From Cytophagaceae bacterium (GTDB lineage Bacteria; Bacteroidota; Bacteroidia; Cytophagales; Spirosomataceae), in the NCBI GenBank assembly GCA_027491315.1, contig JAIXWL010000006.1, forward strand, positions 1 to 64,000: DNA of 64,000 nt. Reading direction: 5' to 3'. Numbering within the stretch: position 1 is the stretch's first letter; each line of letters starts with the position of its first letter. The notes below the pieces were generated by a model. It ran no database searches, had not been told where the DNA came from, and saw only the letters and a program-made list of their open reading frames with translations. Shown in pieces: positions 30,672 through 33,709 of this stretch. The position numbers and the translations under genes were made by a program.

Positions 30672-32126
30672 TTATCCAACAGATCCTTCTAAGGAAATAG
30701 CTAATAATTTCTGAGCCTCAACAGCAAATTCCATGGGTAATTGGTTTAACACTTCTTTGGCATAACCATTTACGATTAAAGCTATGGCTGTTTCAGTAGA
30801 TAAACCTCGTTGATTACAATAGAAAATTTGGTCTTCACCAATTTTTGATGTTGTCGCCTCATGTTCTACCGAAGCCGTATTATTTTTAACTTCCAAATAA
30901 GGGAAAGTATGAGCACCACAACGATCACCTAATAATAGTGAATCACATTGTGAATAATTTTTAGCTGAATCAGCTCTTTTCGCCACTTGAACTAAACCAC
31001 GATAGGAGTTTTGAGAGACACCGGCTGAAATACCTTTAGATACGATTCGAGATTTGGTATGCTTTCCTAGGTGAATCATTTTGGTTCCTGTATCAGCTTG
31101 CTGGTGATTATTAGTCACTGCCACGGAATAAAACTCCCCAATAGAGTAATCTCCTTTAAGTATGACCGACGGATATTTCCAAGTAACGGCTGAACCAGTT
31201 TCAACCTGTGTCCAAGATAATTTAGCATGTGCACCATCACAGATGCCACGTTTAGTTACAAAATTATAAATACCACCTTTGCCCTCTTTATCTCCTGGAT
31301 ACCAGTTTTGAACGGTAGAATATTTCACTTCTGCTCCAGCATGAACAAATATTTCAACAACTGCAGCATGCAATTGATTTTCATCGCGCATAGGTGCGGT
31401 ACATCCCTCTAAATAACTAACATAAGAATCTTCATCTGCTACAATCAACGTACGCTCAAATTGACCGGTACCTGCAGCATTAATACGGAAATAGGTAGAA
31501 AGCTCCATAGGGCAACGAACACCCTTTGGTATATAACAGAAAGAGCCATCAGAAAACACAGCGGCATTAAGTGCGGCGAAGTAATTATCCTTAACCGGAA
31601 CTACACTACCTAAATATTTCTTAATTAAATCTGGATGCTCTCGTACTGCTTCTGAAATAGAGCAAAAAATAATTCCTTTTTCTGCTAATGTTTCTTTAAA
31701 GGTAGTAGCAACGGACACTGAATCAATAACTGCATCTACTGCTACATTGGATAAACGTTTTTGTTCATCCAGTGAAATCCCCAATTTTTCAAAAGTCCGT
31801 CGAAGTTCGGGATCTATTTCATCCAAGGAATTTAACTGCTTTTTTGGCTTAGGTGCCGAGTAATATTTTAAGGATTGGTAATCCGTTGGGGTATAAGTCA
31901 CATTGGCCCAAGTTGGCTCTTGTAAGGTCTTCCAATAACGAAAGGCCGCCAATCTCCATTCAAACATCCATTCAGGTTCATTCTTCTTATCAGAAATAAA
32001 TCGAATGGTGCTCTCATCTAAACCAATAGGAGCTTCATCTGTGTCAAAATGAGATTCAAATCCGTATTTGTAATCGGAACTTGTTACTTCTTGTAAAATG
32101 TCATCTACCTTTTCTGCCATAACCAT
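30672..32126 (-). CDS. sufB: Fe-S cluster assembly scaffold SufB
   Basis: A 484-residue SufB of typical length. It builds Fe-S clusters with SufC and SufD. Seen are the N-terminal helical region ([20 protein letters not shown]), then [18 protein letters not shown], the beta-helix core with [20 protein letters not shown] and [10 protein letters not shown] (conserved cysteine), and the C-terminal [16 protein letters not shown]. It stands alone: the genes on both sides are not sufC or sufD. Confidence 0.97.
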
Positions 32127-32201: not shown

Positions 32202-32666
32202 TTAAAATAATGGTGTATTTCTAATCAAACTTTCTTCCAATGAAATAAAGGTTTCAGTCCGTTGAATTCCAGTTACACGCTGAATCTTATCATGTAACAC
32301 TTCCCTTAAATGCTGGGTATCTCGACAAATTATCTTAGCAAATATGGAATAAATACCTGTCGTATAGTGAATATTAACCACTTCTGGTATCTTTTCTAAT
32401 TGTTTAGCTACATCTTCATACAGGGAACTTTTATCTAAATATATACCTAAAAAGGCAGTGATGTCCCAGCCAATTTTTGAATAATCTATTAATAGTTGGG
32501 CTCCTTTTACTATACCTAAGGCCTCCATTTTTTTCATTCTGACATGTACTGTACCGCCAGAAACGTCTAAACGCTGTCCGATTTCAGTATAAGGTAGATT
32601 GGAGTCTCTCACTAAAATTTCTAAAATCTTATAATCCAAAGGATCTAAATCGAATTTCTTATCCAT
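32202..32666 (-). CDS. Lrp/AsnC-family transcriptional regulator
   Basis: A 154-residue regulator. The N-terminal winged helix is LDPLDYKILEILVRDSNLPY and YTEIGQRLDVSGGTVHVRMK; the C-terminal RAM domain (about 70-145) holds the ligand-binding and dimer interface with KIPEVVNIHYTTGIYSIFAK. Such proteins sense amino acids. Its targets are unknown. It ends upstream of sufB and starts about 130 bp from the tRNA-like gene on the other strand. Confidence 0.92.
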   Translation of the reverse strand: MDKKFDLDPLDYKILEILVRDSNLPYTEIGQRLDVSGGTVHVRMKKMEALGIVKGAQLLIDYSKIGWDITAFLGIYLDKSSLYEDVAKQLEKIPEVVNIHYTTGIYSIFAKIICRDTQHLREVLHDKIQRVTGIQRTETFISLEESLIRNTPLF

Positions 32667-32734
32667 AATATTTTCAACAAATTGATATTATTTTTAAAAA
32701 TTACTCAAAAAAATTAGAATTTCTTTAAATAATT

Positions 32735-32764
32735 TTGAAAAATTAAAAATGATTTATAATTTTG
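32735..32764 (+). promoter_or_regulatory. consensus promoter of the tRNA-like RNA gene
   Basis: TTG (32735-32737, within TTTTG) is followed after exactly 19 bp by TAATTTTG (32757-32764). This is the full Bacteroidota housekeeping consensus with optimal spacing. Transcription is predicted to start near 32770, about 30 nt before the RNA's acceptor stem. Confidence 0.75.
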
Positions 32765-32798
32765 TGGTGTAATAATTACAAAGGTAAATATTATTTCA

Positions 32799-32942
32799 CT
32801 GTAGGGTGATGAAATTGGCAGACGTGCCCTCCTGTCTCGGGGGTGGTGAGTTCGGGATAAACGTAGCGTAATGGGTTGACCACTAAATCAGTTCTGCGAT
32901 ATGGCTAACCGCACCTTGGAGGTTCGAATCCTTCTCCTACAG
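32799..32942 (+). tRNA. atypical tRNA-like RNA with Asp-type anticodon loop and giant variable arm
   Basis: A 144-nt RNA with tRNA architecture. The acceptor stem CTGTAGGG/TCCTACAG gives 7 bp with G73, or 8 bp if C-G is counted. The D-arm ATGAAATTGGCAGACGT is of the Leu/Ser (class II) type. The anticodon stem CCCTC/GGGGG holds the loop CTGTCTC, with U33 and anticodon GUC, and the T-arm is canonical (GGTTCGAATCC). The variable region is 74 nt (32844-32917), closed by GGTG/CACC with a further possible stem CGTAG/CTGCG. U37 in place of a purine is abnormal. The gene has its own promoter and terminator. It could be a specialised tRNA, a tRNA-derived regulator or a tRNA pseudogene; the intact arms argue against decay. 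Confidence 0.65.
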
Positions 32943-32987
32943 CATTTTTATTATTTGGTTTTTAGTTTGTTGATGAAGTGTAATGTT

Positions 32988-33018
32988 AAAAGCAATTCTA
33001 TTTTAGAATTGCTTTTTT
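32988..33018 (+). terminator. terminator after the tRNA-like RNA
   Basis: AAAAGCAATTCTA and TAGAATTGCTTTT form a 13-bp stem with loop TTT, followed by more T. It defines a primary transcript of about 250 nt from the promoter at 32735-32764. Confidence 0.85.
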
Positions 33019-33035
33019 ATTTGAATAATAGTCTA

Positions 33036-33043
33036 TAAATTTG
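33036..33043 (+). promoter_or_regulatory. -7 element of the peroxiredoxin gene
   Basis: TAAATTTG is a perfect TAnnTTTG match 30 bp before the ATG at 33074. The nearest TTG pairs are 12 or 24 bp upstream, outside the usual 17-23 bp spacing. Confidence 0.4.
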
Positions 33044-33073
33044 GTAGATAATTCACCTTAAACCCCTATCGCT

Positions 33074-33709
33074 ATGTCATTAAGATTAGGAGATATTGCG
33101 CCAGATTTCAGCGCTGAAACAACTCAAGGACCTATAAATTTTCACGAATGGATTGGAAATTCATGGGTATTGTTTTTTAGTCACCCAGCTGACTTCACCC
33201 CTGTTTGTACAACTGAACTAGGAAAAACAGCATTATTAAATGGAGAATTTAGTAAAAGAGGTGTTAAGGCCATTGCTATTTCGGTTGATAGTCTTGATTC
33301 TCACAACAAGTGGGTACCGGATATTGAGGAAGTAAATCATGTACAGGTTAACTTTCCGATCATTGCAGATCCAGAGAAAAAGGTAGCACTTTTATATGAC
33401 ATGATACATCCAAATGCATCTGAAAAAGCTACAGTTCGTTCGGTATTTATTATTGGGCCAGATAAAAAGATTAAATTAACTTTAACCTATCCGGCTTCTA
33501 CAGGTAGAAATTTCACTGAAATTTTGCGCGTGATAGATTCTTTACAATTAACGGCAAACTATCAAGTTGCTACACCAGCAGACTGGGTTAATGGCGAAGA
33601 TGTTATCATTACTCCTGCTGTTTCTAACGAAGAAGCGGTTAGCAAATTTCCAAAAGGATTTACGACCGTTAAACCATATTTGAGAAAAACACCACAGCCA
33701 AATCTATAA
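33074..33709 (+). CDS. 1-Cys peroxiredoxin, Prx6 type
   Basis: A 211-residue AhpC/TSA-family peroxidase. The active site is HPADFTPVCTTELG with the peroxidatic Cys45. There is no other cysteine in the protein, so it is a true one-cysteine enzyme of the Prx6 class. The C-terminal domain (YQVATPADWVNGEDVIITPA) is the Prx6 extension. It reduces peroxides in the cytoplasm with an unknown thiol partner. The next gene starts 12 bp downstream. Confidence 0.94.
   Translation: MSLRLGDIAPDFSAETTQGPINFHEWIGNSWVLFFSHPADFTPVCTTELGKTALLNGEFSKRGVKAIAISVDSLDSHNKWVPDIEEVNHVQVNFPIIADPEKKVALLYDMIHPNASEKATVRSVFIIGPDKKIKLTLTYPASTGRNFTEILRVIDSLQLTANYQVATPADWVNGEDVIITPAVSNEEAVSKFPKGFTTVKPYLRKTPQPNL

Follow-up and report, generated by a model that had tools for sequence, protein, structure and literature searches.

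We identified, in a 64,000-nucleotide stretch of Cytophagaceae bacterium DNA (i.e., the window), an oversized tRNA-like RNA that belongs to a conserved RNA family of Bacteroidota. We interpret it, with a probability of roughly 0.64, as a dedicated non-decoding tRNA: its sequence suggests that it would be charged with aspartate, that the bound aspartate would be amidated to asparagine, and that free asparagine would then be released. We also favor, slightly less firmly, a wider view in which such RNAs form a widespread class of metabolic tRNAs, i.e., RNA cofactors that would serve solely to carry aspartate through GatCAB to free asparagine, would replace asparagine synthetase in Cytophagales, Saprospiraceae, and other Bacteroidota, would be kept off the ribosome by their anticodon loop and giant variable arm, and would be run by an AsnC-type regulator.

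The mature part of the RNA (positions 32800 to 32942, plus strand; 143 nt up to G73) was delimited by direct reading, homology, and covariation. It consists of a 7-bp acceptor stem (TGTAGGG at 32800 to 32806, with the 3' strand TCCTACA at 32935 to 32941), a class II (Leu-like) D-arm with a 3-bp stem and a loop containing GG (32809 to 32825), an anticodon arm (32827 to 32843) with the loop CTGTCTC at 32832 to 32838 (i.e., G34, U35, C36, U37, and C38), a 74-nt variable region between the anticodon and T stems (32844 to 32917), and a canonical T-arm with the loop TTCGAAT (32918 to 32934), all on the plus strand. G73 is position 32942, and the next base in the window is C. All the parts named in the initial annotation (i.e., the intact 7-bp acceptor stem, the class II D-arm, the T-arm, the CTGTCTC loop, and the 74-nt variable region) were thus recovered on re-reading. 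An eighth acceptor pair (C32799-G32942), which had also been considered there, was ruled out, since the base preceding the RNA is variable (C in 110, T in 52, and A in 21 of 183 copies). A standard tRNA call, which would have removed the novelty, was returned by none of the programs: ARAGORN made no tRNA call at 32800 to 32942 and no tmRNA call in the window, the RNA had no match in Rfam at the gathering threshold, and a permissive cmscan of 32700 to 33074 gave no tRNA call. Because there was neither an ARAGORN call nor an Rfam 15 match, the RNA is probably absent from current annotation. Folding energy alone was uninformative (z = 0.00; 96 of 200 shuffled sequences fold equally well).

A 161-nt query around the RNA matched 44 of 59 genomes, its own included, and a pattern scan of named genomes yielded at least 119 matching stretches. 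Among the matches listed, most are from Cytophagales-type bacteria (Algoriphagus, Cyclobacterium, Spirosoma, and Flammeovirga) and Saprospiraceae, with a few from Chitinophagaceae and Flavobacteria MAGs. The listed pattern matches and relatives together provided 183 copies (six without a clear 3' end were left out), representing 150 distinct sequences; the RNA is identical in the Aquirufa contigs L074 and L098. In an alignment of 35 sequences, 95.4% of the cells were paired and 17 of the 31 pairs changed on both sides. The covariation score was 0.338, versus 0.164 for shuffled alignments (none of 500 reached the score) and 0.076 to 0.120 for slid registers, and covariation supports the acceptor stem, the T stem, and two new stems in the variable arm. 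The initial annotation had taken a lack of homologues or of compensatory stem changes as the mark of a decayed tRNA. With homologues in 44 of the 59 genomes and strong covariation, the RNA is a conserved family of Bacteroidota and not a decayed tRNA.

A covariance model, built on sequences with the loop CTGTCTC or, in one case, CTATCCC, was run over 392 Bacteroidota genomes and identified 42 that carry the RNA (RNA+), 39 of them in the same class and three outside it. The RNA+ matches scored at least 76 bits, compared with approximately 61 bits for ordinary tRNA-Leu. Only families f22 and f23 contain both RNA+ and RNA- genomes. An armless relative of 76 nt, with the loop CTATCTC and a score of 65.5 bits, occurs in genome G047 (L238:1339-1414, minus strand), which also has AsnA. 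In some genomes (L132, L128, L226, L227, and L044), three or four copies of the RNA are arrayed within a few hundred bases. Searches of the open-licence PMC literature brought up no earlier description of such an RNA among the titles and abstract openings listed.

The variable region, which from the RNA lengths spans approximately 38 to 126 nt across the family, has a conserved base. In the window, helix A (4 bp) joins GGTG (32845 to 32848) to CACC (32912 to 32915), and helix B (3 bp) joins CGG (32853 to 32855) to CCG (32909 to 32911); both are supported by covariation. They are followed by an internal loop with ATAAA on its 5' side (32857 to 32861; AYAAA in the family) and CTAA on its 3' side (32905 to 32908), both conserved. 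We analyzed the arm in 148 of the 150 distinct sequences, leaving out one without the loop motif and one containing an N. The third pair of helix A is A-U in 62, G-C in 54, U-A in 24, and G-U in 8 of these 148, and the three pairs of helix B are paired in 123, 136, and 148 of them, respectively. The bulge between the two helices is mostly 3 to 5 nt long, with a longer insert in 18 of the 148. The 5' side of the internal loop reads ATAAA in 112, ACAAA in 23, AAAAA in 12, and AGAAA in 1, and the 3' side reads CTAA in 146 and CCAA in 2; these counts carry the bias of a search that selected the 148 sequences for A-any-AAA and C-T/C-AA. Beyond the loop, the first pair is conserved, and the distal arm is free in length. 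The proposed GGTG/CACC closing stem is therefore strongly supported by covariation, and the inner CGTAG/CTGCG stem proposed with it is not the conserved element; the family instead keeps CGG/CCG, AYAAA/CTAA, and the first pair beyond. In the distal arm of the window (32873 to 32883) lies the sequence GGGTTGACCAC, which recurs in many, though not all, members.

At the acceptor end, U1-A72, G2-C71, U3-A70, and G73 are present in all 74 model matches with a 3' end and in 147 of the 150 pattern-found sequences (of the three exceptions, two were mis-set by the end finder and one has A3-U70), so these pairs are nearly invariant. The remaining acceptor-stem pairs, unlike these fixed ones, covary. In the same genome, the ordinary tRNA-Asp has G1-C72, G2-C71, and G73, and the tRNA-Asn has U1-A72, C2-G71, and G73; the RNA is a mix, with U1-A72, G2-C71, and G73 accompanied by an Asp-type loop. 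According to an excerpt of a review, Asp identity resides mainly in G73, G34, U35, C36, and C38, and amidation of Asp-tRNA-Asn is conferred by U1-A72, being blocked in tRNA-Asp by G1-C72 and U20a (PMC9976931). The RNA of the window has all five aspartyl-tRNA synthetase (AspRS) determinants, as do 69 of 75 model matches; the other six lack G34. The G1-C72 pair of tRNA-Asp is replaced by U1-A72 in 74 of 74 model matches, and the sequence accordingly has the form of a GatCAB substrate (i.e., U1-A72 and no G1-C72). As judged from its sequence, the RNA joins the tRNA-Asp-type determinants of AspRS to the U1-A72 pair of tRNA-Asn, by which GatCAB chooses its substrate for Asp-to-Asn amidation.

Each of 33 genomes had one AspRS match over the TIGR00459 cutoff. 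At a residue where we take H to mark a relaxed (nondiscriminating) AspRS, the enzymes of seven RNA+ genomes, compared by eye, carry L, K, or F instead. The motif is, again by eye, common to the RNA+ genomes and the RNA- genomes without GatB of family f22, and as a sign of a discriminating enzyme in RNA+ genomes it is suggestive only. AspRS is a class II enzyme and is expected to face the variable-arm side of the tRNA. Because of this orientation, the large arm may hinder AspRS, in which case the enzyme must tolerate it.

The anticodon loop keeps what AspRS would read and has relaxed what the ribosome would need. In the 75 distinct model matches, U35, C36, and C38 are each invariant, and position 34 is G in 69, A in 3, C in 2, and T in 1. 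Position 33 is T in 58, A in 7, G in 6, and C in 4, and position 37 is T in 65, C in 7, and G in 3, but never A. We based these counts on the model matches since the pattern that retrieved the other 150 sequences included the loop, and loop counts from those pattern-found sequences are therefore not independent. An ordinary decoding tRNA has U33 and a purine at position 37; here, U33 is kept in 58 of 75, and the purine at 37 is found in 3 of 75, all G. With U33 missing from 17 of 75 sequences, no A at position 37, and a G there in just three, normal decoding by the RNA appears unlikely. The genome also has an ordinary tRNA-Asp(GUC), with the loop CTGTCAC. A tRNA-Leu would have A73 and a Leu anticodon, and the RNA has G73 and GUC. 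Pairing of the anticodon arm with the anti-Shine-Dalgarno region was considered and dropped, as the stem sequence varies in distant members. Of the two alternatives offered in the initial annotation, a tRNA charged by AspRS and used outside decoding fits these observations best (U35, C36, and C38 invariant; G34 in 69 of 75; U33 in 58 of 75; no A37), and its interpretation is in part supported; what it had missed are the U1-A72 amidation signal, the GatCAB link, the missing asparagine synthetase, and the AsnC-like regulator.

The RNA co-occurs with GatCAB, which we judged by GatB (TIGR00133) alone. Among all 105 genomes of the class, with the armless G047 set apart, GatB was found in 39 of 39 RNA+ versus 4 of 65 RNA- genomes (Fisher's exact test, P = 2e-24, with relatedness ignored), as well as in the three RNA+ genomes outside the class, where GatB is also common without the RNA. 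AsnRS was present in 41 and GlnRS in 33 of the 41 genomes, out of the 392, that were searched for these enzymes. When the class genomes with both GlnRS and AsnRS are considered, GatB is present in 17 of 17 RNA+ and 0 of 16 RNA- genomes; since both synthetases are present, GatCAB lacks its usual decoding substrate there. Because GlnRS is missing in families f12 and f66, GatCAB has another job in these two. In f12, genome G222 (loop CTCTCTC) and the armless G047 also have AsnA. The RNA- genomes with GatB are G099 (without GlnRS) and G210, G258, and G437 (with GatB in ORFs of 1110-1116 aa). These ORFs, in three genomes of family f25, each come after a gatA-like gene and lie at L273:3826-7173 (plus strand), L274:3796-7128 (plus strand), and L275:939-4277 (minus strand). 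A domain scan showed that the L273 ORF, of G258, joins GatB to a complete bacterial AspRS in one fusion protein. Canonical AsnB is missing from both G210 and G258. Near the three ORFs, there was no convincing model match and no ARAGORN tRNA.

Canonical asparagine synthetase B (AsnB; NF006949) exceeded its cutoff in 0 of 42 RNA+ versus 27 of 38 RNA- genomes (80 of 108 genomes searched; the 38 include G047); G110 and G399 narrowly miss the cutoff. The three RNA- genomes of f22 that were tested all lack GatB and have AsnB. AsnA and long AsnB-like enzymes (TIGR01536) were searched for in 61 of the 392 genomes: AsnA was found in 1 of 22 RNA+ genomes, and AsnB-like enzymes over the TIGR01536 cutoff were found in 19 of 22. 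The genome of the window has three of the latter, which score 312 to 324 bits against the AsnB cutoff of 499; two of them flank a glycosyltransferase gene, and they could make asparagine. The proposed replacement of asparagine synthetase by the RNA is not tidy, because four RNA- genomes fall outside the pattern: G075 and G171 (both f23) and G103 lack GatB, AsnA, and canonical AsnB, and G254 lacks GatB and canonical AsnB. An excerpt of a published survey lists Bacteroidetes among 18 genera with AsnRS, GlnRS, and GatCAB and without asparagine synthetase and proposes that asparagine may be made on tRNA-Asn in those genera (PMC4206432).

The gene divergent from the RNA in the window (32202 to 32666, minus strand) encodes an AsnC-like regulator. 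Its best NCBIfam match is AsnC (156 bits, below the cutoff of 227), followed by LrpA (72 bits) and Lrp (48 bits). Directly behind it, in the window and in many relatives, lies a gene (30672 to 32126) that we take to be sufB-like. Of 158 distinct loci with at least 400 nt upstream (11 loci with less than 400 nt and 5 duplicates were left out), 82 have a divergent AsnC/Lrp-type gene no more than 400 nt from the RNA, at a distance of 121 to 308 nt. This layout occurs in families f1, f12, f22, and f23, in part of f19, and in f66, which is outside the class; at the Algoriphagus-type and Saprospiraceae loci, the RNA lies elsewhere, not beside the regulator. Homologues of the regulator with at least 53% identity were found in 22 of 22 RNA+ genomes and 5 of 39 others (61 of the 392 genomes searched). 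In three of those five (G060, G402, and G178), the regulator gene still has beside it, by eye, the trailer motif together with a promoter-like box and a terminator-like hairpin, and the tRNA-like part was not found at these loci.

Around the RNA of the window, we located on the plus strand a promoter-like box (TAATTTTG; 32757 to 32764) that fits TAnnTTTG, the -7 box consensus of Bacteroidota, a U-rich 3' trailer with a weakly conserved GGTTTAT..TTG-like motif (32943 to 32987; by eye), and an intrinsic-terminator-like site (32988 to 33016). Most of the loci inspected have a TAnnTTTG-like box before the RNA and a terminator-like hairpin after it. The trailer motif is also seen, by eye, at L244-L246 and L249-L250, which are AsnC loci without the tRNA-like part. 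A cis-regulatory leader was also considered and was rejected in view of differing downstream genes, terminator-like sites after the RNA, and copies elsewhere in the genome. Upstream of the box is a putative operator, TTAAATAATTTTGAA (32725 to 32739, plus strand), with one mismatch to the symmetric motif TTRAAWWWTTTKYAA. With up to two mismatches, TTRAAWWWTTTKYAA immediately precedes the box in 37 of 47 upstream regions adjacent to the regulator (2.9 expected in shuffles) and in 42 of 54 nonadjacent ones (3.2 expected), where 47 and 54 are the regions with a box out of 70 and 71, respectively; because the pattern was drawn from these same sequences, the enrichment is no independent test. The motif was forced to be symmetric at derivation, and the column counts and shuffle control were not. 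We infer that the TTRAAWWWTTTKYAA-type site is the operator of the AsnC-like regulator. No operator-like site with up to three mismatches was found in the 411 nt upstream of gatB in the same genome, and there is therefore no sign that gatB shares the regulator. According to an excerpt of a published account, E. coli AsnC activates asnA, and less so with asparagine (PMC8707732).

On the basis of these features, we propose that AspRS would load aspartate onto the RNA through its tRNA-Asp-type loop (G34, U35, C36, and C38) and G73; that GatCAB would recognize U1-A72 and amidate the bound aspartate to asparagine; and that the asparagine, once released, would be used by AsnRS for ordinary tRNA-Asn. 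A discriminating AspRS would suffice, because the proposed carrier has an Asp-type loop. An asparagine-loaded GUC tRNA on the ribosome would place asparagine at Asp codons, and three features may serve to keep it off: the relaxed U33, the large arm, and a position 37 that is a pyrimidine in almost every member. The AsnC-like regulator, acting at the putative operator over the RNA promoter, would match the RNA level to the asparagine supply. This proposal offers a single explanation for four odd facts: an Asp-type loop occurs together with U1-A72, the decoding features are weakened, GatCAB is an orphan, and the neighboring gene is AsnC-like. It is weakest with regard to family f12, the members that lack G34, the way the arm would fit AspRS, the release step, and the long AsnB-like enzymes. 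Also against it are the 3 of 75 members with G37 and a regulator that scores below the AsnC cutoff and is nonadjacent in approximately half of the loci, and genomes G075, G171, and G103 are left unexplained by it.

A rather unlikely alternative that deserves serious weight is a regulatory role: as a tRNA mimic, the RNA would bind AspRS or GatCAB, whether or not it is charged, and would report on or tune the Asp/Asn pathway, with a relaxed AspRS allowing asparagine to be made on ordinary tRNA-Asn. Regulatory systems commonly pair a transcription factor with a small RNA encoded divergently from it, and the co-occurrence with GatB and the regulator would be the same for such a mimic. Bdellovibrio, which in an excerpt of the survey has AsnRS, GlnRS, and GatCAB without asparagine synthetase, provides a precedent (PMC4206432). 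The AspRS residues seen by eye in the seven RNA+ genomes and the motif shared within f22 do not point to a relaxed enzyme, however. The acceptor end and the elbow are preserved, and C still follows G73, as in a tRNA that is charged; the presence of three or four arrayed copies suggests flux rather than signaling.

The remaining readings fare less well. It is improbable that the RNA donates asparagine (or aspartate) to another ligation, e.g., by a cell-envelope or peptide transferase, rather than supplying free asparagine: non-decoding donor tRNAs do exist for cell-wall synthesis, and charging without decoding would be accounted for, but the missing canonical AsnB and the AsnC-like regulator would be left unexplained, and no neighboring gene cluster is linked to the RNA as widely as the regulator (a comparison of gene linkage). 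Still more doubtful is a decoding tRNA (for Asp, for Asn at Asp codons, or for frameshifting); the GUC anticodon, the tRNA fold, and U33 in 58 of 75 would suit it, and the loss of U33 in the other 17, the pyrimidine at position 37 in 72 of 75, and the ordinary tRNA-Asp(GUC) argue against it. A decayed tRNA-Leu gene, which the Leu-like D-arm and the silence of tRNA finders might suggest, can practically be dismissed given the conservation over many families with covariation and the promoter-like and terminator-like sequences.

If the asparagine-synthesis proposal is true, a tRNA acts here as a biosynthetic cofactor rather than a decoder. The retention of GatCAB in many Bacteroidota that have both GlnRS and AsnRS would be explained, as would their production of asparagine in the absence of AsnA and canonical AsnB. 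It would also become clear how cells escape mistranslation when a tRNA with an Asp anticodon carries asparagine.

Specialized non-decoding tRNAs exist, such as the tRNA-Gly variants for the staphylococcal cell wall. They likewise keep the tRNA fold and have lost decoding features, whereas the present RNA is linked to amino acid synthesis via GatCAB and has a structured variable region of approximately 38 to 126 nt. In known tRNA-dependent asparagine synthesis, in which a relaxed AspRS and GatCAB act on tRNA-Asn (Bdellovibrio, Deinococcus, Thermus, and Staphylococcus), U1-A72, G73, and GatB with AsnRS and no canonical asparagine synthetase are shared features, as far as an excerpt of the survey describes them (PMC4206432). 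That route uses an ordinary decoding tRNA-Asn, whereas the carrier proposed here would be a dedicated, chimeric, non-decoding tRNA. Allo-tRNAs and selC-like tRNAs are also unusual and long-armed, and an excerpt of their description gives them 8/4 or 9/3 layouts (PMC7609411). The present RNA, in contrast, has an ordinary 7-bp acceptor stem and a 5-bp T stem. In E. coli, asnC and asnA are divergently arranged. The layout in the window is alike in that an AsnC-type regulator lies back to back with what would be an asparagine-supply gene, but the partner gene here encodes an RNA and not asparagine synthetase A.
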